A stretch of 64,000 bases of DNA from Deltaproteobacteria bacterium (GTDB lineage Bacteria; Myxococcota; Myxococcia; Myxococcales; SZAS-1). The stretch lies in contig JAFEBB010000004.1 of the NCBI GenBank assembly GCA_018266075.1, forward strand, positions 124,001-188,000. The letters run 5' to 3'. Numbering within the stretch: position 1 is the stretch's first letter; every line of letters begins with the position of its first letter. Shown piece by piece: positions 29,176-53,342 of this stretch. The notes under the pieces are model-generated. The model saw nothing but the letters and a program-made list of their open reading frames with translations. It made no database searches and was not told where the DNA came from. A program made the position numbers and the translations under genes.

Positions 29176-29733
29176 ATGCATCTCAACCGCAAGTCCGTTC
29201 TACTTGGTGCTGCGGGCCTGGCGCTGGTGACGCTCGGTGTCCTCGCTCTGGCCACGCGCGGCCCGATGGAGCCGCCCGCGCAAGATCTGTCGAACGACCT
29301 GGCTGCGGCCTACAACGCCGTCGACTCCGGCGCGGTGAAGCTCTCCACGCCCGCCAAGGTGAGCATGACCGTGCTCGCCGCCGACGGCGTGCCGCAGCGC
29401 AACGCGCCCAGCTTCCAGCCGCGGGTGATCTCGGTGGTGGGCGCGGCGCCGGTGGAGGCGCTGCACCGGCGCGCGGTGCTGGTGCGCTACCGGGGCGACG
29501 TGGAGGGCACGTTCGCGGTGATGTCGCTTCCTGGCAAGCCGGACGACTTCGCGCTCGACGCCGGGACGATCGAGTTCCAGAACCACCGCTTCACCACGTT
29601 CTTGCGGCCTGGGCCGGGCGGCGCGCCGCTGCACGGCGTGGGTCAGGTGATGGGTGGACGGCTGGTTTTTCTCGTGGGTCCGCAGCCGTTCGACAAGCTG
29701 GCAGAGCTGGCGGTGATGATTCCGCCAGTCTAG
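29176..29733 (+). CDS. Uncharacterised membrane-anchored protein
   Basis: 185 residues: a single N-terminal transmembrane or uncleaved signal segment (SVLLGAAGLALVTLGVLALA), then about 155 residues outside the membrane. Segments such as VRYRGDVEGTFAVMSLPG and TFLRPGPGGAPLHGVGQVMGGRLVFLV suggest a beta-rich domain. No family is recognised. It diverges from the metal-uptake operon across 47 bp, so the two may share a control region. Its TAG stop begins the heptad repeat element at 29731. Confidence 0.5.
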   Translation: MHLNRKSVLLGAAGLALVTLGVLALATRGPMEPPAQDLSNDLAAAYNAVDSGAVKLSTPAKVSMTVLAADGVPQRNAPSFQPRVISVVGAAPVEALHRRAVLVRYRGDVEGTFAVMSLPGKPDDFALDAGTIEFQNHRFTTFLRPGPGGAPLHGVGQVMGGRLVFLVGPQPFDKLAELAVMIPPV

Positions 29734-29798
29734 TTCCGGGTCGCTGGTTCCTGGCAGGCGCTCAACCAGGAACCAGGAGCTAGGAACCAGGAACTGAA
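29731..29798. repeat. Heptad inverted-repeat element, GGTTCCT subtype, copy 1
   Basis: Seven-base units run TAGTTCC, GGGTCGC, TGGTTCC, TGGCAGG on the left and AACCAGG, AACCAGG, AGCTAGG, AACCAGG, AACTGAA on the right. The core is a perfect 11-bp inverted repeat, CTGGTTCCTGG (29744-29754) with CCAGGAACCAG (29766-29776), and an 11-base loop. It lies between convergent genes. The left end is the stop codon of the plus-strand gene. The helicase gene's stop (TAG, 29780-29782 on the minus strand) lies within the right units, so the repeat also encodes that protein's last residues. Confidence 0.85.
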
Positions 29799-31798
29799 TC
29801 TCGGATCTTTTTCCAAGCCGGTCCGAGCTTGGCGAAATCTCCGACGCGCGTGGCCGGCGGCAGCGACTCGAGGAACTTCCGGCCGTAGCCCTTGGTGCGA
29901 ACGCGCTTGTCGAGCACGGCCACGATGCCGCGATCGCGCTGGGTTCGGATCAGCCGGCCAAAACCTTGCCGCAGCGAGAGCGCCGCTTCGGGAACCTGGT
30001 AGGCGTCGAACGGCTCCTGACCTTGCTCTTTCAGCCACTGGATCCGCGCGGCCACCACCGGATCCTTCGGGTTCGCGAACGGCAGCCGGTCGATGATCAC
30101 CAGGGACAGCGCGTCGCCAGGAACGTCGACGCCTTCCCAGAAGCTCTGCGACGCAAAGAGCACGCTCGGCTCCTCGCGGAAGCGCTCGAGCAGCTTCTGC
30201 TTGGGCAGCTCGCCCTGGAGCAGCATCTGCCAGGGCAGCCGGCCCTCGAGCAGCTTGTAGAGCTCGCCCATCTGCCGCAGCGAGGTGCAGAGCACGAACG
30301 CGCGGCCGTCGGTCACGTGGGTGAGGGCCTCGACCTCTGCCGCCGCGGCCGCCGTGAAGCGCGGGTCGTTCGGCTCGGGCAGGTGCACCGGCACGTAGAG
30401 GATCGACTGGCTGCCGTAGTCGAACGGCGAAGGCAGGCTCTTCGACTCCAGCTCCACACGCGGCTGGCCCTTGGAATCGACGAGCCCGAGGCGCTTCTTC
30501 AGGAACTCGAACGAGCCGCCCGTGGAGAGCGTGGCCGAGGTGAACACCGCCGTATCCAGCGCGGGGTAGACGCGCCGCGCGAGCTCCTCGGCCACGTCCA
30601 CCGGCGCTGCGCGCAGCGCGACGGAGCGCATCCGCTGCTCGGCAAAGTAGACGTGGCTCGGCTTCTCCTCCGCGAGCACGAAGCGCAGCTGCTCCGCGAG
30701 CTCACCCGCGCGCCGCCCCAGCGACGCCACCTCGGCCAGCTCGTCACCCGCCAGCGACTCGCGCACGCTCTCCAGCACGCGAAACGTATCGCTCGACTGC
30801 GCCATCGCCGCTTCGCGCAGCGCGGGGGTGAGCCGCACGCTCTCGCTCTGCGGCAGCTGCGCCGACACCGCCCCAAACAGCGCCTGCGACGCGGTCCGCA
30901 AAGCGGCCCACGCCGGCGCCGCCTCGGGATACTTCTCGTGGCCGGGCAGCAGCATGCGCTCGCCGTCGCGCGCGAGCTCCTCCAGCTTGAAGCTCGAGAT
31001 GTGGGTGCCGAAGTGCTCGCTGGCGATCTCTTCGAGCGCGTGGGCCTCGTCGAAGATCACCACGTCGTAGCGCGGGATCACCTCGCCCGCGCCGCGCATG
31101 GGCCGCCGCTTCTCGTCCGACGGATCCGCGGCGTCGTCGTCCTCGATCACTTCCTTCGACTTCCCGGTGCGCACCGCCACGTCGGCGAAGAAGAGCGCGT
31201 GGTTCACCACGACCAGATCCGCCGCGGCGGCCTCGGCGCGCATCTTGGTCACGAAGCACGCCTCGTAGTCCGGACAGCGCTGGCCGGTGCACGTATCCGC
31301 CGTCGCGCTGAGCTCGCGCCAGGCCGCGAAGCCCTCGGGCAGATCGAGCTCGGACTTGTCGCCGGTCTCGGTGGCCTTGGCCCAGGCGCGCAGCCGCGGG
31401 TAGAGGCGCGCGTCGTGCTTGGTCTGGAAGAGCGGCTCCTGCTCGAAGCGCCCGAAGCGCGCCAGGCACAGGTAGTTCGAGCGGCCCTTCATGTACGCGG
31501 CGCGGAACGAGAGCCCCGCGCGCTCGGCGAGCAGCGGCAGGTCCTTGAAGAAGATCTGATCTTGAAGCGTCTTGGTCGCCGTGGAGACGACCACCTTCCG
31601 ACCCGAGCGCAGCGCGGGCACCAGGTACGCGAGCGTCTTGCCGGTGCCCGTTCCCGCTTCCACGAGCAGGTAGCGCCGCTCGGCGAGCGCGCGGGTGACG
31701 GCCTCCGCCATCGCCAGCTGCCCCGGTCGCAGCTCGTAGCCGGGCAGCCCGCGGGCGAGCGCGCCGTCCGGGCCGAGGATGTCGTCGAGCTCGCTCAT
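29780..31798 (-). CDS. dinG: DinG/XPD-family ATP-dependent DNA helicase
   Basis: 672 residues from ATG 31798, overlapping the previous gene's stop. Superfamily 2 motifs: ELRPGQLAMAEAV (Q-like), VEAGTGTGKTLAYLVPA (Walker A), DEAH in VVIFDEAHALEE, TSATLSTGG, and the lobe-2 segment LSLRQGFGRLIRTQRDRGIVAVLDKR. Four cysteines (SNYLC, TADTC, QRC, YEAC) lie between motifs Ia and II, where XPD/DinG proteins bind a 4Fe-4S cluster. The C-terminal residues SVPGS come from the adjacent heptad repeat. A repair or R-loop-resolving role follows from family knowledge; YoaA-type proteins are the alternative name. Confidence 0.9.
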   Translation of the reverse strand: MSELDDILGPDGALARGLPGYELRPGQLAMAEAVTRALAERRYLLVEAGTGTGKTLAYLVPALRSGRKVVVSTATKTLQDQIFFKDLPLLAERAGLSFRAAYMKGRSNYLCLARFGRFEQEPLFQTKHDARLYPRLRAWAKATETGDKSELDLPEGFAAWRELSATADTCTGQRCPDYEACFVTKMRAEAAAADLVVVNHALFFADVAVRTGKSKEVIEDDDAADPSDEKRRPMRGAGEVIPRYDVVIFDEAHALEEIASEHFGTHISSFKLEELARDGERMLLPGHEKYPEAAPAWAALRTASQALFGAVSAQLPQSESVRLTPALREAAMAQSSDTFRVLESVRESLAGDELAEVASLGRRAGELAEQLRFVLAEEKPSHVYFAEQRMRSVALRAAPVDVAEELARRVYPALDTAVFTSATLSTGGSFEFLKKRLGLVDSKGQPRVELESKSLPSPFDYGSQSILYVPVHLPEPNDPRFTAAAAAEVEALTHVTDGRAFVLCTSLRQMGELYKLLEGRLPWQMLLQGELPKQKLLERFREEPSVLFASQSFWEGVDVPGDALSLVIIDRLPFANPKDPVVAARIQWLKEQGQEPFDAYQVPEAALSLRQGFGRLIRTQRDRGIVAVLDKRVRTKGYGRKFLESLPPATRVGDFAKLGPAWKKIRDSVPGS

Positions 31799-32466
31799 CC
31801 CGGCTTGAGGGCGTAGGTGATGAGCACGGCCAGGATGCCCAGCATGCCGATGAGCGCCAGGGCCATGACGATGTTCCGGCTGCGGTCGTTCGGCCCTCGC
31901 GCGAGCTGCTCCGACTGCGCCGCGGCCGAGGCCAGGGCCATGCTCCGCGCGGCGAGCGCGTCGATGACGCCCTGCGCGCGCGGATCGCCGGGGAAGTCGG
32001 CGAGGTGATGCCGGGCCAGGCGGCCCACGAAGGCCACGTTCTCCGGGGGCACGGCGGCGAGCACCAGGCTCGCCTCTTGCGAACCCCACTTCTCGAGCGC
32101 GAACGCGAAGTCGCGGCGCGCGGACTGCGGGATCACGTCCTCTTCGGCGCGGTAGAGGTCGAAGGTCAGCCCGCAGGTGGCGCACGAGCTGCGGCCGTTC
32201 TTGGGCGTCGCGCACTTCGGACAGCGATCTGCGGCAGACACGGGCGCCGGCGGCGGCGGCGCTTCGACGACCGTCGGCCGCGCGAAGGGGATCACCACCG
32301 GGCGCTCGGGTTCGGCCGCCGCCACGGCCTCCTTCACCAGCACCGGCCCCGCGCCCAGCTGGGACTCGGCGCCACAGCGCGCGCAGGTGAGCACCAGCCG
32401 CGTGCCCTCCACGCGGAAAGCGCCGGGCTCGGCCAGGCGCTCGCAGGCGTCGCAGAGGAGCTTCAC
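31795..32466 (-). CDS. Zinc-ribbon membrane protein
   Basis: 223 residues from a GTG at 32466 that overlaps the protease gene's stop (GTGA); the end overlaps the helicase start (ATGA). The N-terminal pair LLCDACERL and LTCARCGAE forms one zinc ribbon. A second is RCPKCATPKNGRSSCATCG near residues 90-110. A helical middle and a C-terminal transmembrane segment (IVMALALIGMLGILAVLITYAL) follow. The tight overlaps on both sides indicate one transcript for M50 protease, this protein and the helicase. The function is unknown. Confidence 0.72.
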   Translation of the reverse strand: MKLLCDACERLAEPGAFRVEGTRLVLTCARCGAESQLGAGPVLVKEAVAAAEPERPVVIPFARPTVVEAPPPPAPVSAADRCPKCATPKNGRSSCATCGLTFDLYRAEEDVIPQSARRDFAFALEKWGSQEASLVLAAVPPENVAFVGRLARHHLADFPGDPRAQGVIDALAARSMALASAAAQSEQLARGPNDRSRNIVMALALIGMLGILAVLITYALKPG

Positions 32467-33488
32467 GGGCCGCCTCGCGTCTCGAAGGGCACGGGGATGA
32501 AGGTGAGCACCAGAAGCACCAGCGAGACCAGCGCGATCACGTAGCGGCTCGCGCTCAGCGGCTCCTGGGGCTGGGTCACCGGCGGGTGGCGCACGCCCAC
32601 CAGGTAGCGCGTCACCAGCAGCCAGCCAATCCACGACGGCGACGCGAACACGATCAGGGCCAGCAGGCTCAGGTGCATGCCGTGCCCAATCCACTCCGCC
32701 TTTTTCCCGAAGAGCGCCGCGGTCACGTGGCCGCCGTCGGTCTGGCCGATGGGGAAGAGGTTCAGCATCGTCACCAGGCAGGCCCACCAGCCCGCGAACG
32801 CGACCGGGTGGAGAAAGAGATCCTGGCCCGGCGGCCGCGGGCCCAGGAAGAGGCGCTGCGGGATCCACGTGAGCAGGCAGTCGCCGCTCCAGAACACCGG
32901 CGGCTCGGGCGAGAGCAGCGCACCCAGGGCGTGCCCGCCCGCGCTGAAGCGCGCCCCGAGCGTTCCGCCCGCGAGCTGAAACGCGTGCGCGAACGTGGTG
33001 GCCGCCGACCAGAGCGACGCGCGCCCGGGCAGATGGATCCCTGCCTCGTAGACCACCGGCGCGTAGTGCGAGTGCGCCGTGCCCCAGAACAGCAGCGGGA
33101 TGCCCAGCACCATGCCGGCGATGGGCCCTGCCGCGCCGATGTCGACGAGCGCATTTCGCGTGGGGATGAGGGTGCGGATCTGGATCACCGCGCCCAGCGT
33201 GCCAATGCCGATCGGCAGGGGCAGGGGGATGAAGTACGGCGGCGAGATCGACACGCCGTAGTACTTGCCCGCGAAGTAGTGGCCGAACTCGTGGCAGGTG
33301 AGGATCGCCAGCAGCGCCGCGGTGAACATCAGCGCGTCGCGCACGCTCTGGGTGGAGAGCCACTGCAGCCCGGCGACGCACGCGAACGTCGCGACGAAGA
33401 GCCCCACATGCAGCAGCCACCGCTCGCGCACCGGCGCGACGGGCTCGGGGGGAGGAAGCTCGAACTCCGCGGCGCTGGGGTTGGACAT
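32463..33488 (-). CDS. Site-2-protease-like M50 metallopeptidase
   Basis: 341 residues. The ATG at 33488 follows a GGTGGAG ribosome site. About seven membrane segments are present. The zinc site HEFGH is in ILTCHEFGHYFAGKYYG, and the second ligand region is LNLFPIGQTDGGH (NxxPxxxxDGGH pattern). A hydrophilic insertion with small-residue-rich sequence occupies the middle. M50 proteins cut substrates inside the membrane, for example anti-sigma factors. No PDZ domain is visible, as in the FtsH-free plant EGY and several bacterial members. Substrate unknown; whether it acts on the anti-sigma factor at 14011-14652 is speculation. Confidence 0.88.
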   Translation of the reverse strand: MSNPSAAEFELPPPEPVAPVRERWLLHVGLFVATFACVAGLQWLSTQSVRDALMFTAALLAILTCHEFGHYFAGKYYGVSISPPYFIPLPLPIGIGTLGAVIQIRTLIPTRNALVDIGAAGPIAGMVLGIPLLFWGTAHSHYAPVVYEAGIHLPGRASLWSAATTFAHAFQLAGGTLGARFSAGGHALGALLSPEPPVFWSGDCLLTWIPQRLFLGPRPPGQDLFLHPVAFAGWWACLVTMLNLFPIGQTDGGHVTAALFGKKAEWIGHGMHLSLLALIVFASPSWIGWLLVTRYLVGVRHPPVTQPQEPLSASRYVIALVSLVLLVLTFIPVPFETRGGP

Positions 33489-33713
33489 CGCTCCACCCTT
33501 CATAGAGACAACGCGCCGAAATATCCACGCGCGGCGGACCGCGCCGCCTGCAGGATCTGGCTGATCCAATCGGCGCTGGCTGCTTTGCAACCTCGCAAGG
33601 GTCTTGACTGCCCCTCGGCAACTAGATACTCACGCACAGCCTCAGGGAGGCATTTGCAGCAAAAACGCAGTTCACATCGACCCTTCTGGGTCCTCTGATA
33701 GGGAGCTTTCACA

Positions 33714-34070
33714 ATGAAGAAGCTGCTCGTCGTTGCCGTCGCGGCTGTGAGCTGCGGCCTGTTCGCCTGCACCAGCGTTGAGACCGCGACCGTGTCGGGT
33801 GCCGAAGTTGTCGCCTCCGGTGGCGAGGCCGTTGCCGTTGCCCAGGCTGAGTCGCTCGGTCTGTCGGCGATCTTCCACATCGTGGACATCGTCGCCTCCG
33901 ACCTCGACCAGGTCGTGAACAAGCTCCTCGTCTCCGAGGCCAAGGCCATGGGCGGCACCAAGGTCGACCTCAAGGGCGCCGGCACCACCCCCCGCCACGG
34001 CCTGTTCGCGCTGATGGGCGGCATCATCGGCGTGACCCAGTCGCACGCCATGGGCATCGTGGTGAAGTAA
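33714..34070 (+). CDS. Small lipoprotein, probably abundantly expressed
   Basis: 118 residues; an AGGGAG-type ribosome site lies about ten bases before the ATG. The lipobox is CGLFACTS, with lipidated Cys at residue 19. The mature protein is rich in Ala, Val, Gly and Ser, with SAIFHIVDIVASDLDQVVNKLL and a glycine-rich C-terminal part (FALMGGIIGVTQSHAMGIVVK). It is followed by a strong intrinsic terminator and has unusually uniform preferred codons (GCC, GTC, AAG). Both fit a highly expressed single-gene unit. No family recognised. Confidence 0.65.
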   Translation: MKKLLVVAVAAVSCGLFACTSVETATVSGAEVVASGGEAVAVAQAESLGLSAIFHIVDIVASDLDQVVNKLLVSEAKAMGGTKVDLKGAGTTPRHGLFALMGGIIGVTQSHAMGIVVK

Positions 34071-34108
34071 GCCACGCCGCGGCCGGTCGTTCTCGGCTGC
34101 AACAGAGA

Positions 34109-34137
34109 ACCCTCTCCGGCGACGGGGAGGGTTTTTT
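34109..34137 (+). terminator. Intrinsic terminator after small lipoprotein gene
   Basis: Stem ACCCTCTCC (34109-34117) pairs with GGGGAGGGT (34124-34132), with one G-T pair and a six-base loop, followed by a T-run to 34137. This is the clearest factor-independent terminator in the window. Confidence 0.88.
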
Positions 34138-34187
34138 GTTTGCGGGAGTGGAAGCAGAATGGGGCAAGGCTGCTCTGGCAGCCGGGG

Positions 34188-34676
34188 GTGAGCGTGAGCC
34201 AGGTTTTTGCCGCACAGACCGAGCCGCTCTGGGTGCGCGCCGCGCAGGCGCTCGAGCCGCGCTCGACGCCCATGGGCCTGACCGAGTTCTGGCGCGAGGT
34301 CGTGGAGCTGGGCTGGGGCAGCCGCCACCAGGACGCCGAGGCCTGCGGCGTGTCGCTGGCCGCGCGCCTGGGCCCGACGGAGCTCGTGGCCTTCAAGCTC
34401 CGCCTCCGCCAGCTCGACGCCCAGCTCGCCCGCGCCATCGAGCTCTGGGAGATGCAGAACGAGGAGAGCCTGGGCCTGCCGCGTGAGCTGGCCGGCGCGC
34501 TGCGCGAGCACGTGATTGGCCAGGGCGAGATTCCCTACGGCGCCGCGGTGCAGGGCCCGTGGCGCGTGAAGCACCGCGCGGATCGCGACGACTACCTCGA
34601 GGGCTTTGGCCGCGTGGTCGACGAGGCGCTCAAGCACGTGCCGCAGGAGAAGCTGCTGGCTGTGATTGGTTCCTAG
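34188..34676 (+). CDS. Uncharacterised helical protein, DUF4240-like in places
   Basis: About 162 residues if the GTG at 34188 is used; the frame opens at 34140 inside the terminator tail, so the earliest TTG is unlikely, and an ATG at 34272 is another option. GLTEFWREVVELG, LRLRQLDAQLARAIELWEMQ and HVIGQGEIPYGAAVQGPW recall DUF4240-type proteins (xFWxxI start, LWxAA helix, xQGxxxYxxA). The match is loose. The stop codon TAG (34674-34676) lies inside the heptad repeat. Confidence 0.5.
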   Translation: MSVSQVFAAQTEPLWVRAAQALEPRSTPMGLTEFWREVVELGWGSRHQDAEACGVSLAARLGPTELVAFKLRLRQLDAQLARAIELWEMQNEESLGLPRELAGALREHVIGQGEIPYGAAVQGPWRVKHRADRDDYLEGFGRVVDEALKHVPQEKLLAVIGS

Positions 34677-34743
34677 TTCCTGGTTCCTGGTTGATGGTCA
34701 CTCGCCAACCAGGAACCAGCGACCAGCAACCAGGAACTGAATC
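34668..34743. repeat. Heptad inverted-repeat element, GGTTCCT subtype, copy 2
   Basis: Left units read GGTTCCT, AGTTCCT, GGTTCCT, GGTTGAT. Right units read AACCAGG, AACCAGC, GACCAGC, AACCAGG, AACTGAA. The core is a perfect 14-bp inverted repeat, CTGGTTCCTGGTTG (34680-34693) with CAACCAGGAACCAG (34706-34719), and a 12-base loop. It separates convergent genes, contains the plus-strand gene's TAG, and ends against the minus-strand gene's TGA. Its right border AACCAGGAACTGAATC is identical to copy 1. Confidence 0.88.
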
Positions 34744-35833
34744 AGCGCAACTCGATGCCGAGGCCAGGCTCGGATCCGAGCGTGTAGCGCGGTCCGGACT
34801 CGCGATAGCCGCCGCGGAACGGATCCGTGCGCAGCAGCCAGGCGGTATCGAGATCCGGGAACTCGACGCCACCCAGCGCCGCGGCGAGGTGCGTGGCCGC
34901 GGTCATGCCCAGGCGGGTCTCCACCATGCCGCCGACCATGATCGACATGCCCGCCGCCCGCGCCGCCCGACCGATGGCCAGCGCCGGTAGCAGCCCGCCG
35001 CTCTTGGCGATCTTGAGGTTCACGCCCGAGGCCGCGCGCGCGTCGCGGACGCGACCGAGCTCCGCCAGGTGCTTCACCGACTCATCGGCCACCACCGGAG
35101 CGCGGCTCGTCGAAGCGACCTGGGCCATTCCCGCGAGATCGTCCTCGGCACAGGGCTGCTCGTAGCACTCGACCGGTCCGAGTGCTTCCGCGGCGCGCAA
35201 CACCCGGACGGCCTCGTCGGCGGTGAAACCGCCATTGGCGTCGAGCCGAAACCGCGCGCCCGGCACGGCCCGGTGGACCGCAGCGAGGGCGTCGAGATCG
35301 CCCTGGAGATCTTTTCCGACCTTCACCTTGAAGCTCACGAAGCCCTTGGCGCTCCACTGCGACGCCAGCTCGGCCATGCGCGCGGGCGGCAGGATGGGCA
35401 AAGTGATGTCGGTGACCAGCTCCGGCGCGCGGCCTGGCTCCGGCCCGCCGAGCAGCGTGTAGAGGGGGACGCCCTTCGCGCGCGCGAGCGCATCGAGCAG
35501 CGCCAGCTCCACGCCCGCGCGAGAGACCAGGTGACCGTGGAACGCGGCGTCGAGCGGCGCCTGCAGCGAAGCGAGGTCGTCCGGATCCAACTTGATCCCG
35601 ATCAACCTCGGCGCGGCGGCGGCGACGGCGCGGAGCACGTCGGGCTGATCTTCGCGCGTGACCGGCGGCAGGCACGCCGCCTCGCCCAGCCCGGTGAAGC
35701 GGGCGCTGCCATCTTCGAGGACCGCGGTCACCAGCGCGCAGCGGGTGGCATCCACGCGCCCCGAGGCGATGACGAACGGATCGACGAGCGGAACAGAGAG
35801 CTCGACGACGGTGAGCGAAGCCAGCTTGAGCAT
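34742..35833 (-). CDS. Dipeptide epimerase / muconate-lactonizing-type enolase superfamily enzyme
   Basis: 363 residues with the full enolase-superfamily layout: a capping domain, then a barrel. Catalytic features are the KxK motif in SFKVKVG, metal ligands in FRLDANGGF (Asp), VECYEQPC (Glu) and VADES (Asp), and the opposite-face Lys in NLKIAKSGGL. GGMVETRLGMTAATHLA near the end is typical of L-Ala-D/L-Glu epimerases, which act in murein-peptide recycling. o-Succinylbenzoate synthase and muconate cycloisomerase are alternatives. The upstream cNMP-binding gene ends four bases before this start, so the two form an operon. Confidence 0.85.
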   Translation of the reverse strand: MLKLASLTVVELSVPLVDPFVIASGRVDATRCALVTAVLEDGSARFTGLGEAACLPPVTREDQPDVLRAVAAAAPRLIGIKLDPDDLASLQAPLDAAFHGHLVSRAGVELALLDALARAKGVPLYTLLGGPEPGRAPELVTDITLPILPPARMAELASQWSAKGFVSFKVKVGKDLQGDLDALAAVHRAVPGARFRLDANGGFTADEAVRVLRAAEALGPVECYEQPCAEDDLAGMAQVASTSRAPVVADESVKHLAELGRVRDARAASGVNLKIAKSGGLLPALAIGRAARAAGMSIMVGGMVETRLGMTAATHLAAALGGVEFPDLDTAWLLRTDPFRGGYRESGPRYTLGSEPGLGIELR

Positions 35834-35836
35834 GTC

Positions 35837-36826
35837 TTAGAGGGTGAGCTTGAAGTCGAGCTCGCCCAGGCTGCTCGCGGTGAGGCCCTGCTCGCCCGGC
35901 GCCGCCGTGTGGGCGACGAGCGTCGAGTTCGCCTGCCGCAAGTTCGCCGCCAGCTGCCGCGAGACCAGCTCCACCAGCCGGTACGCGAAGCGATTGCCGG
36001 CCTGAAAGAGCATCTCGAAGTCCGCGCTGCCGAGCCGCCACACGCGCGATTCGGACCGCGCCACCACGCTGGCCGAGCGGTTGCCGCCGTCGAGCGTCGA
36101 CACCAGCCCGAACAGCGAACCCGGCCCGAGCACCAGGAACGGCGTGCCGTGTCGACGCGTCTCCACCTCGCCGGCCACGAGCATGAAGATGGCGTCGCTG
36201 GGCTCGCCCTCGCGGCAGACCATCTCGCCCGGCTGGAGCGTGCGCTCGGTGAGCTTCTGCGCCAAGGCCAGGCGCGCGGTGGCGGGCGTATCGCGCAGGG
36301 GCCAGAAGTCGTCGAGGGTGCTCGCGTGCAGGCGCGTGCCCTCGTTCACCTTCGTGGCCGGCTCGGGCTGACCCACACCCTCGGGCACGATCTGCACCGA
36401 GACCATGCGCAGCCGCAGCGACATGTCCCGGGCCATCTTGCGGAGCACGTTGTAGGCGGCGGGGCGCTGCTGATCGCGGAGGACGTCGAAGTCGGACGCC
36501 TCGATGCGGTAGGCGCCGCCGGCCTTCTTCACCGTGGCGGTGGCCGAGCGGACGGCGTCGTCGATGAGCGACATCTCGCCCAGGGTGTCGCCGCCGGTGA
36601 GCGTGGCCAGCGGGCGCGCGTCGGGGCCGACGGTGAGGGCGACCTCGGTCTCCGGGCCGAGCACCCACATGGCCCCGCCGACGTCGCCCTCCTGGAAGAT
36701 GACCTCGCCCTGCGCGAGCTGGATGGGCCGCACCAGCCGCAAGAGCTCGACGAGGTCCTCCTTCTTCACCAGCTCGAAGAGCGGGATGGAGTGCAGGAAC
36801 TTCTCGAGGGCGGGATTCGGCTCCAT
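35837..36826 (-). CDS. Protein with two cyclic-nucleotide-binding domains
   Basis: 329 residues from ATG 36826; a TTG 12 codons earlier is possible. Two Crp-like cNMP-binding folds: the first near residues 15-125 (FQEGDVGGAMWVL, GDTLGEMSLIDD) and the second near 185-300 (REGEPSDAIFMLVAGEVE, GSLFGLVSTLDGG). The first retains the GE-S/L phosphate-binding-cassette pattern better than the second. No HTH or kinase domain follows, so it may act by binding partners. It is coupled to the epimerase gene downstream. Such proteins in Myxococcota are numerous and mostly uncharacterised. Confidence 0.82.
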   Translation of the reverse strand: MEPNPALEKFLHSIPLFELVKKEDLVELLRLVRPIQLAQGEVIFQEGDVGGAMWVLGPETEVALTVGPDARPLATLTGGDTLGEMSLIDDAVRSATATVKKAGGAYRIEASDFDVLRDQQRPAAYNVLRKMARDMSLRLRMVSVQIVPEGVGQPEPATKVNEGTRLHASTLDDFWPLRDTPATARLALAQKLTERTLQPGEMVCREGEPSDAIFMLVAGEVETRRHGTPFLVLGPGSLFGLVSTLDGGNRSASVVARSESRVWRLGSADFEMLFQAGNRFAYRLVELVSRQLAANLRQANSTLVAHTAAPGEQGLTASSLGELDFKLTL

Positions 36827-36936
36827 GAACACTGCATCGCCAATGGCGGCAGGCTCTGTCAACTCCCTTCCCCTCGCGAAACCCCATCCCGCCCATCACT
36901 TCCCCGTCTCACGCGGGAAAGGGAAGTCTCGTCATT

Positions 36937-36950
36937 AACCACCACGTTAA
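36937..36950. other. TAAC-N6-GTTA interrupted palindrome upstream of two divergent genes
   Basis: TAAC (36937-36940) and GTTA (36947-36950) are separated by CACCAC; another GTTAAC lies at 36999-37004. The site is in the 184-bp region between divergent genes, where an operator is plausible. Half-site centres are ten bases apart, one helical turn. Confidence 0.4.
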
Positions 36951-36981
36951 CAAACCAGCCACCAGCCACCAGCCACCGACC
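36951..36981. repeat. Heptad repeat, GGTGGCT subtype, single arm
   Basis: Three tandem CCAGCCA units (36956-36976) followed by CCG. This matches one arm of the larger element at 53201-53342; no opposite arm is present nearby. It lies between divergent genes, directly after the TAAC-N6-GTTA palindrome. Confidence 0.75.
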
Positions 36982-37010
36982 CGAGTCGCCGAGTGCGTTA
37001 ACGTCCGAGA

Positions 37011-38354
37011 ATGCTCCTCGCGCTCCTCCTCGCCGCCTCGCCGGTCACCATCGACGCCGGGCCGCTGAAGGTCCGCGTGGTGATCGCCGAGACGCCGAAC
37101 CTCTTCCACGCGGTGGATCAGCTCTCGGGCTGGTTTCCCTACGCGCACAAGCAGTACCGCCGCTACTATGCCGCGCCCGAGCACGGCGGCCTCTCGCCCG
37201 AGGACGAACAGCTCCTCGCCGCGCACGCCGCGGTCCGCAAGGCGCACGGCTGGGGCATGGTCGACGCGGCGCTGCTCAGCGGCGACAGCCTCGACGACGC
37301 GCTCGCCGGGGCCGTGCGCCAGAAGGCCCTCACCGCCGATGAGGCCGCCACCGAGAGGAAGGTCCTCGCCCACTTCCAGCCGCGGCTGCACGCGCTCTTC
37401 GAGGCGCAGCGGCCCGCGCTCGAGCGCTTCGCCCAGGGCGCGCTGGCGGCCACGCCCGAGCTCACCGCGTACGCGAAGAAGGCCTCGCGCTTCTGGGGCG
37501 GCTCCAAGGTCGACACCCAGCTCGTGCTCGTGGCCACGCCGCCGGGCGGAGGGGGCGGTGGCTACGCGGGCGGTCGGCTGGTGGTCGAGGTCGACGCGAC
37601 GAGCTCGCCCACCTACGTCCTCGAGCACGAGGGCTGGCACGCGTTCGCCGAGCCGCACGACGCCGCGCTGCACGCGGCTGCGACGGAGCTGGGCACCGAC
37701 TACGAGACGGTGAGCGAAGGGCTCGCGTACGCCGTCGCACCGGGGATCTGGAAGCCCGCGTCGGATCCGGATCAGCTCGTGCACCAGGTCGCGAAGGACG
37801 CCGCGGCGCACAAGTCGTTCTTCGACGAGCCCTACGTGCGCTTCAATCGGCTGGGGCTCGCGCTGCGACCCACGCTCGGGCCTGCGCTCGACGGCAACGG
37901 CACCTTCGAGAGCTACCTGGCGACGGAGAAGGCCGTGTATCGCGCGCTGGCCGAGCTGGCCGCCGTCGACGACAAGCTCCCCCCGCGCTACTTCTTCTTC
38001 GGCCCACGCGACGACGCGCTGGCCCGGGCCATCTCCCAGGAGAAGTTCGACATCTGGTCGCGGCCGGTTCAGGAGAAGTTCCTCGACGAGCTGCGTCCGA
38101 AGATTCGGCCCAGCGATCGCGTGGTGCTCGTGCTCGACGCGTCGCCGCTTCCGCCCGCGTTCACGTCGTTCCTCGGCGACAACGCGGCGAAGCTGGCGGC
38201 GCTGCGCCAGGCGTCGAAAGCGGGCGAGGCCTCGCTCGCTGGGCCAAAGGGCGAGCAGCTGACCGTCATCTGGGCGGCGGACTCTGCGGGTGCGCTGGAG
38301 AAGGCGCGCACCTCGGCGCTGCTCCGGCCCGAGTCGCCCGACGCCGGACGCTGA
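37011..38354 (+). CDS. Exported HExxH-type putative metalloprotease
   Basis: 447 residues. A short signal peptide (MLLALLLAASPV) is followed by a helical N-terminal half and a Gly-rich loop (PPGGGGGGYAGG). The zinc-binding pair is His206-Glu207-x-x-His210 in YVLEHEGWHAFAE. A downstream YETVSEGLAYAVAP may give the third ligand, Glu, in the gluzincin manner. The remaining C-terminal 180 residues are unassigned. I do not recognise the family. Peptidase activity is inferred from the motif and its context in two helices; it could instead be an inactive relative. Confidence 0.65.
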   Translation: MLLALLLAASPVTIDAGPLKVRVVIAETPNLFHAVDQLSGWFPYAHKQYRRYYAAPEHGGLSPEDEQLLAAHAAVRKAHGWGMVDAALLSGDSLDDALAGAVRQKALTADEAATERKVLAHFQPRLHALFEAQRPALERFAQGALAATPELTAYAKKASRFWGGSKVDTQLVLVATPPGGGGGGYAGGRLVVEVDATSSPTYVLEHEGWHAFAEPHDAALHAAATELGTDYETVSEGLAYAVAPGIWKPASDPDQLVHQVAKDAAAHKSFFDEPYVRFNRLGLALRPTLGPALDGNGTFESYLATEKAVYRALAELAAVDDKLPPRYFFFGPRDDALARAISQEKFDIWSRPVQEKFLDELRPKIRPSDRVVLVLDASPLPPAFTSFLGDNAAKLAALRQASKAGEASLAGPKGEQLTVIWAADSAGALEKARTSALLRPESPDAGR

Positions 38355-38388
38355 CGCCGCGCGCGTCCTCTGCTACTGCATCGAAGCG

Positions 38389-39270: not shown

Positions 39271-39273
39271 TGC

Positions 39274-43642: not shown

Positions 43643-43654
43643 GACCTGGGCAAT

Positions 43655-43672
43655 ATCTACTCGCGAGTAGAT
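43655..43672. promoter_or_regulatory. Perfect 18-bp palindrome, probable TetR operator
   Basis: ATCTACTCG/CGAGTAGAT is fully symmetrical with no spacer and lies just upstream of the TetR gene's start. It probably overlaps that gene's promoter. Size and symmetry fit a TetR dimer site. Confidence 0.8.
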
Positions 43673-43698
43673 TTGTCAAACCGCGGGGCGCGAACCGT

Positions 43699-44804: not shown

Positions 44805-44818
44805 ACTTACAAGCTCTT

Positions 44819-44906
44819 CAGTTGCTGGTTCCTGGTTCTTTTTCCTGGCGGATTCGCAAGATCTTGCTTGGACAGCCAACCAGGAACCCAGGAACTAGGA
44901 ACTTAA
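44819..44906. repeat. Heptad inverted-repeat element, GGTTCCT subtype, copy 3
   Basis: Left units AGTTGCT, GGTTCCT, GGTTCTT; right units AACCAGG, AACCCAGG, AACTAGG, AACT. The paired core is GGTTCCTGGTT (44827-44837) with AACCAGGAACC (44878-44888), separated by 40 bases. It lies between two minus-strand genes. The GNAT gene's stop TAG (44895-44897, minus strand) is within the right arm. Confidence 0.8.
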
Positions 44907-45536: not shown

Positions 45537-45573
45537 GCGTTCATCCTAGCGGGCTGTGCCACAATCCCGCGCC

Positions 45574-46566
45574 ATGACCCTTCCACTCTATGCGCTGGTC
45601 ACCGCTGGAGCACTCGCCGCAGCACCCGCAACCTGGGACGGCTTCCAAGGCGAGCACAGCTTGAGCTGTCTCACCGCCGACGCGCTCGAGCCGCCCGAGA
45701 CCATCCAGCATGCGGGCTTCACCTACGTGTTCCACGGGACGAGCGTGCAAGTTCGGCGCGCCGCCAAGCGCGCGCACGCCGACGTCCGCCTGGGCGTCAT
45801 CTCCGGCATCAAGGAGCTCGACGACGCCACCAAGGCGCAGCTCTCCGGCTGGCTCGCGAAGTTCAAGAGCGCCGACGTGGACGCGATCCTCGTGGGCGGC
45901 GACAACGCCGAGGACGAGAGCCGCCTCGACGACGTCTTCCAGTTCCTCGCGGCGAGCGAGTTGCCGACGTACGTGATCATCGGCAACTGGGAAGGTCGCG
46001 CGTCGTTCAACCGCGCGCTGCGAGCGGCCGCGAAGGATCACCCGAACCTCATCAACGGTGACTTCGCGCGGCGCTTCGACGGCGAGGGCTTCGACGTGGT
46101 CACCCTGCCCGGCTACTTCGACAAGACCTACGTACGCTCCAGCGGCGGCTGCATCTACTCGGCCGACGATGCCAGGAGCATCGTCAGCCTGGCCAAGCAG
46201 GCCGACGATCCGGTGGTCCTGCTCATGCACGGTCCGCCGCGCATGAAGGGAAAGGACGCCATCGACTTCGTGCCCGACACGGGAAACGTGGGCGACGAGA
46301 ACGTGGCCGCGGCGATCGCCGACGCGAAGATCGCCTTCGGCATCCATGGGCACATCCTCGAGGCCGGGCAGCGCGCCACGGACGCGAGCGGCAAGCCCGT
46401 GGCACAAAACAAATTGGTTAAGTCGCTCTTCGTGAACCCCGGGCCGGCGAACGCGCTTCCGTGGAAGCTCAACGATGGCAAGACCAGCTATGGCGCGGCC
46501 GCGCTGGTCACGCTCCAGGACGGCAAGGCGAAGTGGGAGCTCTGGGCGGCGCCCAAGCCGAAGTAG
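45574..46566 (+). CDS. Exported metallophosphoesterase-like protein
   Basis: 330 residues from ATG 45574, with a signal peptide (MTLPLYALVTAGALAAAPA). Calcineurin-type motifs appear in relaxed form: DAILVGGDNAEDES (GGDN), VIIGNWEGR where GNHE is usual, LLMHGPPR and FGIHGHILEAG (GHxH region). The N-terminal DxH motif is replaced by VRLGVISGIKEL, so the metal site is incomplete and activity is doubtful. Rare codons TTG GTT AAG occur at 46414-46422 within a sequence shared with the gene at 10511. Substrate unknown. Confidence 0.7.
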   Translation: MTLPLYALVTAGALAAAPATWDGFQGEHSLSCLTADALEPPETIQHAGFTYVFHGTSVQVRRAAKRAHADVRLGVISGIKELDDATKAQLSGWLAKFKSADVDAILVGGDNAEDESRLDDVFQFLAASELPTYVIIGNWEGRASFNRALRAAAKDHPNLINGDFARRFDGEGFDVVTLPGYFDKTYVRSSGGCIYSADDARSIVSLAKQADDPVVLLMHGPPRMKGKDAIDFVPDTGNVGDENVAAAIADAKIAFGIHGHILEAGQRATDASGKPVAQNKLVKSLFVNPGPANALPWKLNDGKTSYGAAALVTLQDGKAKWELWAAPKPK

Positions 46567-46569
46567 TCA

Positions 46570-46601
46570 CGCCAGGAACGAGGAACCAGGAACTGGATCT
46601 G
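46570..46601. repeat. Heptad repeat, GGTTCCT subtype, single arm
   Basis: Units GCCAGG, AACGAGG, AACCAGG, AACTGGATC follow the stop of the metallophosphoesterase gene directly. Only the right-hand arm type is present. It keeps the AACCAGGAACTG border seen in copies 1 and 2. Confidence 0.7.
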
Positions 46602-46617
46602 AGCTAGGTTGCACCTC

Positions 46618-48687: not shown

Positions 48688-48734
48688 TGGATCGGGCGGC
48701 AGCCACTATCACCGAGCGAACGTTCGGAGGTTCG

Positions 48735-49289
48735 ATGCGCGTCCACGTGGTGCTGCTCGGGTTGGTGCTGGCCACGGGCTGCGCGAGCTCGCAGGTGATC
48801 ACCGTCTCGAGCAATCCGGTCGGCGCGGATCTCGTCGTCGATGGCAAGTACGCGGGCAAGACGCCGGCCACGTTCACCGACGAGCCCAGCGACGGCCACT
48901 ACTACAAGCTCGACTTCGCCATGCCTGGCTACAAGCCGGTGCAGAAGGTGATCAAGCAGGAGCAGGGCAAGGGGACGGTGGCGTGCATCGGCGTGGCGGC
49001 CGGGTGTTGTCCGCTGGCGCAGGTGTGCTTGCTCAAGTCGTACACGCTGCCCAAGAACACGTACGACTTCGCGCTCGAGCCGGACACGGGAAGCGTGGTC
49101 GGGACGCCGCCGCCGTCGCCGAATGGCGCCTACCCGGTGCCGCCGCCGACGCATGCGCCGCCGCCGTCCGCGAAGGCCCCGCCGCCGCCGAGCAAGTACG
49201 CGCCGCCGCCGCCGTCACAGGGGAACTACCCGGCGCCGCCGCCGCCGCCGCCGGTCCAGGCGCCGCCGCCCCCTCCGCCGCCGAAGTAG
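48735..49289 (+). CDS. PEGA-domain lipoprotein with proline-rich tail
   Basis: 184 residues; GGAGG at 48726-48730 fixes the ATG at 48735. The lipobox is LVLATGCASS. The PEGA domain is ITVSSNPVGADLVVDGKYAGKTPATF, followed by DFAMPGYKP. A hydrophobic Cys-rich segment (CIGVAAGCCPLAQVC) could be a second membrane contact. The last 65 residues are Pro-rich with PPPPS/PPPPP repeats, like wall- or envelope-spanning linkers. PEGA domains bind surface or S-layer components by family knowledge; the exact role is unknown. Confidence 0.75.
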   Translation: MRVHVVLLGLVLATGCASSQVITVSSNPVGADLVVDGKYAGKTPATFTDEPSDGHYYKLDFAMPGYKPVQKVIKQEQGKGTVACIGVAAGCCPLAQVCLLKSYTLPKNTYDFALEPDTGSVVGTPPPSPNGAYPVPPPTHAPPPSAKAPPPPSKYAPPPPSQGNYPAPPPPPPVQAPPPPPPPK

Positions 49290-49326
49290 CGTCGCACCGA
49301 GGTTCGTTGATCCGCGGGCGTCCCAT

Positions 49327-49392
49327 TTCGTTTGTATATGGCGATACAAAATACGATATTTGTATATCCATATCATTACAAAATCAGAAATC
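49327..49392. promoter_or_regulatory. AT-rich island with four alternating TTTGTAT/ATACAAA half-sites
   Basis: Half-sites are TTTGTAT (49331-49337), ATACAAA (49344-49350), TTTGTAT (49359-49365) and TTACAAA (49376-49382). Neighbouring pairs form 7-bp inverted repeats; the first has a 6-base spacer and the second an 8-base spacer. The ~60-bp block is far richer in A+T than anything around it. It lies in the 248-bp region between convergent genes, where no promoter is needed. Alternatives are a recombination or attachment site, a nucleoid-protein site, or a scar. Confidence 0.6.
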
Positions 49393-49537
49393 CGCCCTCG
49401 GGAGCCGAAAGGTCGCCTGAGCGTCGCGAGACGGCGACGGCGCTGGTTCGAAGCGAGGCCCGAAGAAGCCGCCGCTTGCCCAGAGGCGCGTCGTCGCGTG
49501 CCTGGGATCCGGGTTGGCCCTTGGGCGTCCCGGCCAG

Positions 49538-50260
49538 CTAGCGACCGAACCGCGCTTCCACCAGCTTCTTCGCCAGCCGACTCGCGCCGGGCACGCCCTG
49601 GACGCGGAAGTCGCTCGCGGCCTGCATGAGCGGATACTCCACGCGGCGCAGCTCGATCGTCCAGCCGTCCGGCCCGAGCGTGAACAGGCCGTAGGCCGCG
49701 CGCGTATCGCCGTCGCGCGGGTTGCCCACGCTGGCCACGTCGACGAGGGTCACGCCGTCGAGCTCCTTCTGGTAGGCGATGTGCAGGTGCCCGAACGCCA
49801 GCACCCGCGCGTCGCAGCCGCGAATCAGGCTGCGCAGCACGCCCTCGGGCGCTGCGGGATCCAGCGCCGCCTCCATGTCGCGCGGGTTGGCGTGCACCAG
49901 GAGCAGGTCGCCCTTGCCCTCGCCGGAGACGCGGTGGCTGAAGGTGTACTGCCGCATGCGCGAGATGCGCGCGACGCCGAGCTGCTCCGCGGTCCAGCGG
50001 TAGAGCCGGAACTTCCAGTGCTGGGGGTTTCCGTAGTTCCGCAGCGGCAGCTCGCCGGTGAGGTAGGCGTCGGTGTTGCCCTTGACGATGGCCGTGCACT
50101 TCTCGTGGATGAGGTCGGCGACCTCGGCGGGGCGCGAGCCCTTCAGGGAGACGTCGCCGCCGCAGAGGATCTGGTCGACGCCCTGCGCTGCGATGTCCTG
50201 AAGGACGGCTTCCAGCGCCAGCAGGTTCCCATGCACATCGCTGACGATCGCCAGTCGCAC
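49538..50260 (-). CDS. Metallophosphoesterase (YfcE/MJ0936-like)
   Basis: 240 residues from a GTG at 50260. All calcineurin-type motifs are intact: AIVSDVHGN (DxH), LCGGDV (GD), VKGNTD (GNxD form), LVHANP (H) and LAFGHLHI (GHxH form). The size and the GNTD variant fit single-domain bacterial phosphodiesterases of the MJ0936/YfcE group. It is probably cytoplasmic, with no signal peptide. It lies downstream of the DUF5916 gene on the same strand with a 44-bp gap. The true substrate is unknown. Confidence 0.88.
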   Translation of the reverse strand: MRLAIVSDVHGNLLALEAVLQDIAAQGVDQILCGGDVSLKGSRPAEVADLIHEKCTAIVKGNTDAYLTGELPLRNYGNPQHWKFRLYRWTAEQLGVARISRMRQYTFSHRVSGEGKGDLLLVHANPRDMEAALDPAAPEGVLRSLIRGCDARVLAFGHLHIAYQKELDGVTLVDVASVGNPRDGDTRAAYGLFTLGPDGWTIELRRVEYPLMQAASDFRVQGVPGASRLAKKLVEARFGR

Positions 50261-50304
50261 GCCATCTGGATATCGAGGAATCGATCCCGTTGCCAGCTTG
50301 GAGG

Positions 50305-53067
50305 CTAGCCGCCGAAGTAATACGAGACCTTGAGCATCAAGACGTCGTCGTACGGGCCCTTGTGCAGCGAGGCCCAGTCGGGGTTGTTGTACGAGAGCGC
50401 GGGCGAGAGGTCCCCGTTGGTCTGGGCGCGGGTGTACACGAGGTAGGCCACGCTCCCGGGCAGGTACTCCCAGCGCAGGAGGACGTTCACGTTCAAGGCG
50501 CTGCTCTTGCCGTCCGGGCTGTAGGCCGGGTCGGGCGCCGGCACCGGGCGCAGGTCGGAGAGCGCCACCCGGCGGATGCCCGGGTCGGCCTGGACCTCGT
50601 AGAACGGCCCGTAGTGCTCGGTGGCGAAGAAGAGCTGGGCGTAGGCCTGGAGCGTGAGGTGCGGGGTGAAGGTGTACGTGCCGCGGACCACCACGCTCGT
50701 CGACTTGGCGTTCAGGTTGGCGATCTCGTACGCGTGCGGCGTGGTGATGTCGCCGGAGGTGCCGAACCAGCGCGGGTCGCCGTCGGTCCAATCGAGCTGC
50801 GGGTTGGCGGTGAGCTCCAGCGCGTCCGAGGGCCGGAAGGTGACCCCCACCTGCTCGGAGTACTCCACGCCCTGGCGCAGCTTGCCCACGTAGTTGAAGA
50901 GGAACCCGGAGAACATCTTCCGGCTGTCGGTGTGGAAGACGAAGACGCCGCCCACGCTCCAGTCGCGCTCGTAGGGTGAGCCGTCGCGGAGCTCGCGGTT
51001 GTCGTCGTGGGCGGGGTCGAAGTCGAGCTCGGCGTAGGTGCCCCAGAAGTTCTTCCAGTAGATGCCGTCGCCGATCTGGAAGTGCCGGCCCAGGTTCACG
51101 CCCTGGGTGCTCTCGCGCCCGTTGGCGAAGACGTTCAGGTCGGTGTTCAGCGTGGGGCCCCAGGGCTTGGTGGTCCGGTAGTCGCCCGAGACCTGCACGT
51201 AGTGGAGGTTCTGCTGGCGGAGGTAGCCGGCCTCGTTCAGGTCGAGCTTGGGCGAGTAGCCCTCGTAGGCGATGGAGTAGAGCCAGTTGCCGCCGGCCTT
51301 GGCGAACTGGGCCATGCCGCCGTAGCCGGTGTCGCCGCCCTTGATGATGGTGCCGTCGGGCTCGTCGATGTCCGGGCCGCCCACGCGCTTGCTGCCCAGC
51401 AGCGAGGCCATGGCCACGTAGGTGCCGCTCTCCGAGCTCCAGGTGGCGTCGAGGCCGCCGGTGTAGGCGTCGGCGGTGCAGCGGCCGTTGGCGTCGGCCA
51501 CCGGGTAGTCGCCGCTCTGCGTCTCCGGGCAGCCATAGGGGCCGTTCAGCTCCCCGCGGTCGCGTCTCGTCACGCCGGTGCCGGTGAGGCCCAGGGTCAA
51601 TCCGCCGCCCACGTCGTAGCGCAGCCGGCCCACCGCGAAGTTGGCGAGCGGCGCGACCTGCTCGTGGATTTGGCTGCCGTCGGCCTCCCCGATCGTGGCG
51701 AAGGCACGGTTGGAGACGCCGTCGAGCAGCGCCACGGTGAGCTTGTCCGTGGCCTTCCCGGTGACCTTGACCGCGCCGAGGATGTCGTCCGTCAGCGGCT
51801 GATCGAGCAGGCGCTCGCCCGGCCCGTAGAGCGCGTAGTCCGGCGGCCGGCCCACGCGGCGCGAGTAGAAGAGCTGCGTCGTCGTCGGACTGCCCATCTG
51901 GTCGTGCAGCGCGAACAGGTCCGCGCCGGAGAGGAAGAACGGCCGCTTCTCGGGGAAGAAGATCTCGAAGGTGGAGAGGTTGAGCACCACCTGGTCGGCC
52001 TCCACCTGGCCGAAGTCGGGGAGCACGGTCGCATCGAGCGTGAGGTCGCTGCCCGGGTGCCAGCTGACGTCGCCGCCGGCGCTGGCCGCGAAGCCGTTCC
52101 CCGAGGGCGGGTCGTAGCCGATGCCCGGCGAGTAGCGGCTGTCGAACTTGCCCAGCACGAAGGGCCGGAGCTCGAGCCCGGTGCCCGTCGACAGCTCGTG
52201 CATGCCGGTGAGCTCCGCCATGCGCAAGAGCGCGCCCTGCTCTTCGGGCGGCTGGAGCACGAGCTCGTCGGTCTCGCCCTTGCGCGAGATGTAGCGCGCG
52301 ACTTCGACGCGGAACGACACCTCGGGACCGGCCTTGAAGCGCAGCACGGAGAAGGGGATGGCGTACTCCGCGTCCCAGCCTTGAGCGGTGCGCTTGGTTC
52401 CCGAGCGCCAGACGGCGTCGAAGTCCATGTCCTGGAAGTAGTCGCCGGTGCGGTTCCAGTCGGCCTGGACGTTGGTGGGGTACACGCCGAAGCCGTAGGC
52501 GCTCTTCTTGTCGCCGCGGGAGTCGACCTCCAGGTAGACGTAGTCGCTCTCGATGATGCGGTCGCGGCGGGTGAGCTTGTTGGAGACCTCGGCGGGCTCG
52601 GGATCCACGCAGTGGACGGCCACGTAGAGGAAGTTCGCGTCGTAGGCGAAGCGCACGGTGGTGGCCATGCTCGGCTTGGCGCCCGACTCGGGCTGCTGCT
52701 GGGTGAAGCCGTCGAGCTCGGGGGCCTGCTTCCACACGGGGTCGCTCAGGTCGCCGTCGATCGCCGGCGGCGACTCGGCCTTCACCGCGTGGAACTGCGG
52801 CATCGGAGGAAGCACGCCCTTGGCCTCGCCGGCATCGGCCACGTCCGCGATGGCGCCCGCATCCAGCGCGGCAGCACCTGCATCGGGCGCATCCGCGCCT
52901 GCGCCCGCATCGAGCGGGGCTGCTCCAGCGTCGAGAAGGTCAGCGATCCGGCCTGCATCGACAAGCGCAGGGGGCATGGGCTCGGCCGCCACGGGACCGG
53001 CGTCGGCAGGCGCCGGTGGGGCGTCGACCGGGGCGGCCGCGAGGAGCAGGGCGAGGAAGAGGGTCAC
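50305..53067 (-). CDS. DUF5916 / CBM9-like outer-membrane protein
   Basis: 920 residues. A signal peptide is followed by about 70 residues of Asp-Ala-Gly repeats (DAGAAPLDAGAGADAPDAG). A CBM9-like sugar-binding module (about 92-260) has PPAIDGDLSDPVWKQAP and DANFLYVAVHCVDPEP. The C-terminal DUF5916 part shows VLPDFGQVEADQVVLNLSTFE and FFPEKRPFFLSGADLF, then a long series of amphipathic strands ending YYFGG, consistent with a large outer-membrane barrel. Such proteins are thought to bind carbohydrate at the surface. Export to the outer membrane is inference from the strand pattern. Confidence 0.85.
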   Translation of the reverse strand: MTLFLALLLAAAPVDAPPAPADAGPVAAEPMPPALVDAGRIADLLDAGAAPLDAGAGADAPDAGAAALDAGAIADVADAGEAKGVLPPMPQFHAVKAESPPAIDGDLSDPVWKQAPELDGFTQQQPESGAKPSMATTVRFAYDANFLYVAVHCVDPEPAEVSNKLTRRDRIIESDYVYLEVDSRGDKKSAYGFGVYPTNVQADWNRTGDYFQDMDFDAVWRSGTKRTAQGWDAEYAIPFSVLRFKAGPEVSFRVEVARYISRKGETDELVLQPPEEQGALLRMAELTGMHELSTGTGLELRPFVLGKFDSRYSPGIGYDPPSGNGFAASAGGDVSWHPGSDLTLDATVLPDFGQVEADQVVLNLSTFEIFFPEKRPFFLSGADLFALHDQMGSPTTTQLFYSRRVGRPPDYALYGPGERLLDQPLTDDILGAVKVTGKATDKLTVALLDGVSNRAFATIGEADGSQIHEQVAPLANFAVGRLRYDVGGGLTLGLTGTGVTRRDRGELNGPYGCPETQSGDYPVADANGRCTADAYTGGLDATWSSESGTYVAMASLLGSKRVGGPDIDEPDGTIIKGGDTGYGGMAQFAKAGGNWLYSIAYEGYSPKLDLNEAGYLRQQNLHYVQVSGDYRTTKPWGPTLNTDLNVFANGRESTQGVNLGRHFQIGDGIYWKNFWGTYAELDFDPAHDDNRELRDGSPYERDWSVGGVFVFHTDSRKMFSGFLFNYVGKLRQGVEYSEQVGVTFRPSDALELTANPQLDWTDGDPRWFGTSGDITTPHAYEIANLNAKSTSVVVRGTYTFTPHLTLQAYAQLFFATEHYGPFYEVQADPGIRRVALSDLRPVPAPDPAYSPDGKSSALNVNVLLRWEYLPGSVAYLVYTRAQTNGDLSPALSYNNPDWASLHKGPYDDVLMLKVSYYFGG

Positions 53068-53200
53068 GCCGGGATCGCCAGGAGGTGCCGGCTCGGGACC
53101 GGCAGGGCGGGCAACATAGGCTGCGAGGACGGGTTCGAGAAGGACGAGCTGAGCAGCGTGCGAAGGGACGCTCCGGTTGGGGCGACCTGACGACCGATCG

Positions 53201-53342
53201 AGTGGCTGGTGGCTGGTGGCTGGTGGCTGGAGCGGCGTTCGGGTTTCAGGGGATGCCCCAACCGGACTTTACAGCGAGTGAAAAGACGAAGGGCTTTTCA
53301 AATTGGAAATCGGCAACCAGCCACGAGCCACCAGCCACCGCT
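53201..53342. repeat. Heptad inverted-repeat element, GGTGGCT subtype
   Basis: The left arm is four tandem TGGCTGG units (53203-53230). The right arm is CCAGCCA, CGAGCCA, CCAGCCA, CC (53317-53339). The 86-base loop holds a smaller hairpin (GAAAAG/CTTTTC near 53279-53302) and is AT-richer than its surroundings. It lies between the DUF4097 gene and the DUF5916 gene (both minus strand) and fills most of a 283-bp gap. The unit length and layout equal those of the GGTTCCT subtype. Confidence 0.82.

Follow-up and report, generated by a model that had tools for sequence, protein, structure and literature searches.

Inverted heptamer arrays at stop codons of a Myxococcales genome and their probable kinship with an S23p-bearing insertion element

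Short arrays of seven-base units lie between genes at six places in this DNA, and they raise the question of what kind of element they are and how they reached these sites. The window, by which we mean the whole stretch of 64,000 nucleotides at positions 124001-188000 of contig C4, belongs to a draft genome of about 7.84 Mb (about 70% GC, 96.6% complete), hereafter the source genome. An earlier note had placed heptamer arrays at 29731, 34668, 36951, 44819, 46570 and 53201, and all six were found there, with facing arms at four sites (29731, 34668, 44819 and 53201) and one arm at 36951 and at 46570; the border AACCAGGAACTG likewise occurs in three copies, at sites 1, 2 and 5. The loops, given before as 11, 12, 40 and 86 nt, measured about 9, 14, 37 and 76 nt. 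The arms, with unit types A and B as defined below, are the following.

29731..29754, plus strand: left arm of site 1, type A, G-rich; the plus-strand gene 29227-29733 has its TAG stop in the first 3 bases of the arm
29764..29800, minus strand: site 1 right arm, type A; outer border AACTGAATC
34667..34692, plus strand: left arm of site 2, type A; the plus-strand gene ending at 34676 takes its TAG stop from a CTAGTTC unit
34707..34741, minus strand: site 2 right arm, type A; border AACTGAA; abuts the TGA stop (34742-34744) of a minus-strand MR_MLE enzyme gene
36950..36982, minus strand: site 3 single arm, type B (GGCTGGT on the minus strand), between the divergent genes 35837-36832 (minus) and 37011-38354 (plus)
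44819..44851, plus strand: left arm of site 4, type A, with some additional T breaking the array; the inner border is TGGCGG
44876..44904, minus strand: right arm of site 4, type A; one nucleotide is inserted, and the inner border is AACCA
46570..46596, minus strand: site 5 single arm, type A; border AACTGGATC
53198..53234, plus strand: site 6 left arm, type B
53311..53341, minus strand: right arm of site 6, type B; a minus-strand gene has its TGA stop (53351-53353) at a distance of 9 nt

The TAG within a CTAGTTC or CTAGCTC unit serves as the stop codon of several genes, including genes at sites 1, 2 and 4. The minus-strand helicase gene 29780-31798 ends at such an in-frame TAG (CTAGCTC unit) inside the right arm of site 1, and its final codons (DSVPGS) are arm sequence; at site 4 a CTAGTTC unit of the right arm gives the stop (44895-44897) of a minus-strand acetyltransferase gene. 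The arm of site 5 begins 3 nt past the stop of the plus-strand gene ending at 46566 and lies 21 nt ahead of the next plus-strand gene as called. GTTAAC flanks the single arm of site 3 on both sides (window 36935-37000), and an additional inverted repeat, CCGGTTGGGGC / GCCCCAACCGG, at window 53150-53270 has one half within the site 6 element and the other half outside it. A search of the window against Rfam gave nothing above threshold.

Beyond the window, our genome statistics cover 2.82 of the 7.84 Mb, partly contigs picked for type-A matches, and use a home-made gene caller. Two points on which the earlier note had made its proposal depend were settled in its favour: period-7 runs are not equally frequent in coding DNA (43 intergenic vs 9 coding), and many more copies exist in the genome. 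Seven is also the sole tandem period with an intergenic excess in the 2.82 Mb, where periods 5, 6 and 8-12 gave 0-8 intergenic runs each. A 19-mer query allowing at most 2 mismatches found 118 genome matches, compared with 0 for the reversed pattern, and 65 type-A arms were counted in 2.82 Mb, again with 0 for the reversed control; because of these two comparisons the six-site pattern cannot be put down to chance. Matches to the units numbered 204, against 19 for reversed units. Two positions indeed separate the subtypes recognised before, CTGGTTC and CTGGTGG. The units of the genome number at least five, all G-rich, and the intergenic runs are built from them: GGTTCCT (A), GGCTGGT (B), GGCTCGT (b), GGGGGCT (C) and GGGTCGT (D).

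The arms usually measure 22-33 nt, or three to five units, and follow a strict layout. In all 22 two-armed pairs the left arm is plus (G-rich) and the right arm minus, the minus/plus order occurring in none, and the two arms are both A or both non-A in 21 of 22. Type-A arms have TTCAGTTCC or TAGTTCC as the outer border and TGG-TTG or TGG-CGG as the inner border; the common inner endings greatly exceed expectation (TTG, 21 vs 0.5 expected; CGG, 12 vs 2.2 expected), and several short-loop pairs show one of each. As the border types recur, with one of each across several short-loop pairs, the pattern points to copies of one asymmetric unit and not to independent growth. Single arms predominate (88 of 115 element-bearing intergenic regions), and 58 of these 88 have the 5' gene as the nearer neighbour (p=0.004); a search inward from them for a degenerate second arm gave no clear excess. 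No target-site duplication was detected at the source-genome elements.

The heptamer family is real and genome-wide, and its arrangement has a precedent. The earlier note did not recognise the inverted layout, which had in fact been described for Xanthomonas (Rehm et al. 2015, PMC4692102). That study reported GGGAATC and GGGGA(C/T)T heptameric repeats in Xanthomonas and Nostoc; those of Xanthomonas are dispersed genome-wide, 89-93% intergenic, and arranged as facing inverted pairs at about 70 of 186 sites; they lie nearest to stop codons, and their G-rich strand coincides with the coding strand. They are the closest published precedent, sharing with our elements the intergenic arrays, the facing pairs by stops and the same positional grammar. 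The differences are that the source genome holds five units at once and that its main units A, B and b are without G3 tracts (the G3 motif fits 1/65 type A, 0/28 B, 0/20 b, 5/9 C and 11/31 D arms). No mobile-element link is reported in PMC4692102, and S23p is unmentioned there. Scattered intergenic heptamer direct repeats are also known as cyanobacterial STRRs and as TAACTGA of Beggiatoaceae (PMC4679880), the latter mostly direct repeats before start codons with no reported S23p link. On the repeat sequence itself we found nothing relevant in open-access papers.

A possible origin is suggested by one larger copy in the source genome. On contig C35, type-A arms at 62845 and 63286-63325, 398 nt apart, enclose an S23p gene, and this element has the polarity and the outer border (TCAGTTCC) of the small copies. 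The protein encoded in its interior is a four-helix bundle (PF05635, E=1.7e-34; TIGR02436, E=5.9e-34; weak Avd match), and its best PDB match is 2gsc (E=1e-23), the S23p protein XCC0516 of Xanthomonas campestris, which the title of a cited reference describes as a pentamer; arms of three to five units may echo that number or agree with it by chance. This is the one S23p copy in 2.8 Mb of the source genome. In the same 2.8 Mb no S23p partner was found for types B, b, C or D, and no S23p fragments lie beside other source-genome arms. A second PF05635 gene of the genome, C41:36405-36710, has no A, B, b or D array nearby among the matches listed.

The association recurs in other organisms. The A unit occurs in at least 119 stretches from scattered phyla, and because other heptamers abound at these foreign loci (71 other period-7 runs vs 0-16 for other periods), the period and the layout recur whereas the unit varies. 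An S23p-like gene is present at 5 of the 119 foreign loci, and in an acidimicrobial (L152) and an acidobacterial (L138) locus it lies between inverted heptamer arms. PF05635 was found in 31 of 49 genomes with the A unit vs 32 of 142 of the class, groups that are not taxon-matched. In a Gemmatimonadaceae genome, ES-bin-78 (L132, L134, L159, L167, L185), facing A arrays have the opposite polarity, with the C-rich arm on the left, uniformly. In the planctomycete GH22 (L116, L137, L143, L148, L153, L157, L160, L178), interspersed elements of about 150 bp carry GGAACCA arms, an extra internal GCGCGC stem and a partly conserved interior; its 5.6 Mb gave no PF05635 match, though inverted heptamer elements are many, and these are possibly another gene-less family. 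A relative (G025:C1) has four loci (1810679-1811307, 1862771-1863399, 3592873-3593501 and 4837889-4838736) at which a pair of PF05635 matches face each other across about 100-300 nt, perhaps intervening sequences (IVS) in rRNA operons.

Plasmids gave the broadest comparison, with 39 matching records and 20 regions examined. In almost all S23p regions facing period-7 or period-8 arrays surround the gene; such arrays lie within 120 nt of 17/18 plasmid S23p genes vs 16/73 of the remaining annotated genes at these loci, and complementary flanks were seen at 12/18 vs 2/73. The plasmid units are copy-specific (for example GTAGGGA, AGGTGAC, TAGGGTG, CTAAAAG and AGGGAAC), and octamer arms replace heptamers at the S23p genes of a Gemmatirosa plasmid (L302) and of L306 and L314. 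The distance from the upstream stop codon to the start of the arms is no more than about 10 nt in 10 or more of 14 cases. An AGGACGG-type array stands by S23p in Azospirillum, where the flanks were read by eye as 23S rRNA. Annotated phages contained no S23p, and viral contigs a single S23p locus (L298) without strong arrays.

Filled and empty sites, a polymorphism observed here on plasmids, indicate how such elements are placed. Two plasmids about 98% identical differ by a clean 428 bp: GTAAT stands at either end of the filled site (L310) and once in the empty site (L319), where it holds the TAA stop of the upstream gene. In another pair (L308 vs L325) the difference is 506 bp; it lies at an overlapping stop and start (TAATG) and is bordered by ATG on each side. 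A clear 5-bp repeat was seen at one plasmid site only. The remaining filled/empty pairs are too diverged for exact ends. At the site of the first pair, a third plasmid (L320) retains a remnant, one arm with a piece of S23p, and at a TraM site (L326) heptamer arms stand without S23p; these are natural one-armed and gene-less examples, the two forms present in the window. Further S23p elements (L299, L300, L305, L314) lie between nrdB and nrdA, cas6 and cas4 of type I-D, or cas10 and cmr3 of type III-B, and at these sites the S23p gene is probably a passenger. On pAQ6 of Picosynechococcus PCC 7002 the interval between cas10 and cmr3 is free of S23p.

We propose that the window sites are copies, whether miniature, gene-less or decayed, of an insertion element that carries S23p between heptamer arms, and we regard this as probable. 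As none of the six window copies contains an S23p gene, they would be related miniature or decayed copies rather than full members. The full-length element would span about 430-500 bp and consist of two inverted heptamer (sometimes octamer) arrays, the left arm G-rich and the right arm complementary, around one gene, S23p (PF05635/TIGR02436, the 23S rRNA intervening-sequence protein), which is related to Avd of diversity-generating retroelements. Such an element would land at or right after stop codons between genes, where it would do little harm, and later loss of the gene or of one arm would leave short-loop two-armed copies and single arms. We infer that S23p elements gave rise to the window copies or mobilised them; S23p may recognise or act on the arms, small copies may move in trans, and slippage or unit exchange within arms would produce the subtypes and the varying unit number. 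Of the three ideas in the earlier note, a transposon product is the best supported, as the arms match the S23p insertion element, but the REP-like origin it had in mind did not hold.

The position of the elements could also be read as function. Of 100 stop-side distances, 61 were below 10 nt; placing the elements at random within their intergenic regions gave 38, and no more than 47 in any of 300 trials. At 68 tandem gene pairs, 50 elements lie closer to the stop (median 5.5 nt) than to the start that follows (63.5 nt). The arms might be RNA hairpins or G-rich 3' structures after stops that stop transcription or shield mRNA 3' ends, selected and not mobile. Besides the proximity to stop codons, this agrees with the G-rich strand being sense after stops (52:27, p=0.007; before starts it is antisense, 40:15) and with the strong hairpins of two-armed copies (z about -4 to -11). 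However, no U-tract follows the element hairpins, 88 of the 115 regions are single-armed and have no hairpin, 25 of 109 intergenic elements sit between divergent genes, and the same arms border a mobile gene elsewhere. The two-armed copies were accordingly rejected as intrinsic terminators, having the hairpin and lacking the U-tract. We therefore consider selection as transcript-end elements unlikely to explain the family, and the transcript-end structure suggested before stands as to position and hairpins and fails as to the U-tract and for about three quarters of element-bearing regions, which are one-armed; a secondary role of this kind is possible.

It is also improbable that the arrays are plain heptameric microsatellites, grown by slippage and retained where harmless. 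Unit number does vary, and PMC4692102 and PMC4679880 cite work in which period 7 makes up the most frequent long class of bacterial simple sequence repeats, with slippage proposed as its cause. Against this, one unit occupies about 100 intergenic places and is found in none or almost none of the other genomes of the class: the A unit (at most 1 mismatch) occurs in none of 146, and the D unit is nearly missing (140-146 genomes searched for units). The polarity fixed at 22:0, the shared inner borders counted above (TTG and CGG) and the association with S23p are further difficulties. Replication slippage, as the earlier note also suggested, probably alters unit number in the arms but cannot place one unit at about 100 genomic sites.

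Movement of REP- or BIME-like elements by a RAYT (Y1) or another unrecognised transposase of the source genome appears very unlikely. The elements resemble REPs in being small, palindromic, intergenic and numerous (more than 100 arms) with facing pairs, their two-armed forms have unlike inner borders as in BIMEs, and the source genome has two Y1_Tnp genes. However, both Y1 genes carry other flanking repeats, one of them being a RAYT with classical GTAGGAGGCGTT hairpins; no heptamer arrays occur in the 3.3-kb loci of either gene (L292, L293), and the heptamer arms are without a GTAG head. With no ends common to the heptamer elements and the Y1 loci, a REP/RAYT origin was rejected. The RAYT-like transposase (C10:16878-17201, L293) lies between classical REP hairpins (TGTAGGAGGCGTTTCCAACGCC), and this REP family of the source genome is separate from the heptamers; the IS200-like Y1 transposase (C28:21760-22122, L292) has its own terminal palindromes (CCCCGGGGCAAGCCCCGGGG). 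That the arrays were copied from a short repeat template by a reverse transcriptase, whether telomerase-like or from a retroelement, is scarcely credible: templated 7-nt repeats in several units and the resemblance of S23p to Avd, an RT partner (PMC10053308), would fit, but the 96.6% complete source genome has no RVT_1 domain.

The S23p-element reading has a parallel in the IVS of 23S rRNA in Coxiella and Leptospira, where an S23p gene lies between terminal inverted repeats in about 430 bp, horizontal transfer is suspected and, in Coxiella, three to four GACAGAT heptamers stand ahead of the S23p gene (PMC4990558). In contrast to these, the source-genome and plasmid elements are at stop codons between protein genes, and the window copies are without S23p. 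Apart from the Coxiella IVS heptamers, we found no published S23p-heptamer mobile element in the open-access literature. In CRISPR loci, Zhang et al. 2013 (PMC3936711) listed 23S_rRNA_IVP genes among assorted CRISPR-Cas-associated functions; the PF05635 gene between cas6 and cas4 described there has its like at L300 and L305. We read such genes differently: their heptamer arms, and for L314 an allele with the site empty, point to insertion by a mobile element.

More tentatively, S23p with inverted heptamer arms may form a class of mobile element without a recognisable transposase, recombinase or reverse transcriptase, which would use host functions, target stop codons and be the common source of heptamers in Xanthomonas, cyanobacteria, the source lineage and others, of the 23S rRNA IVS and of stray S23p genes in cas operons. 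We find it credible that the S23p-linked heptamer family could prove to be a new class of mobile element. Heptamer repeats have been reported for decades without an account of their origin, and the link to S23p offers one that can be tested. For S23p, a widespread protein known mainly from rRNA insertions, it provides a candidate role, and for S23p genes in CRISPR loci an alternative reading. It would also define a family of very small mobile elements at stop codons, able to leave hairpins behind.
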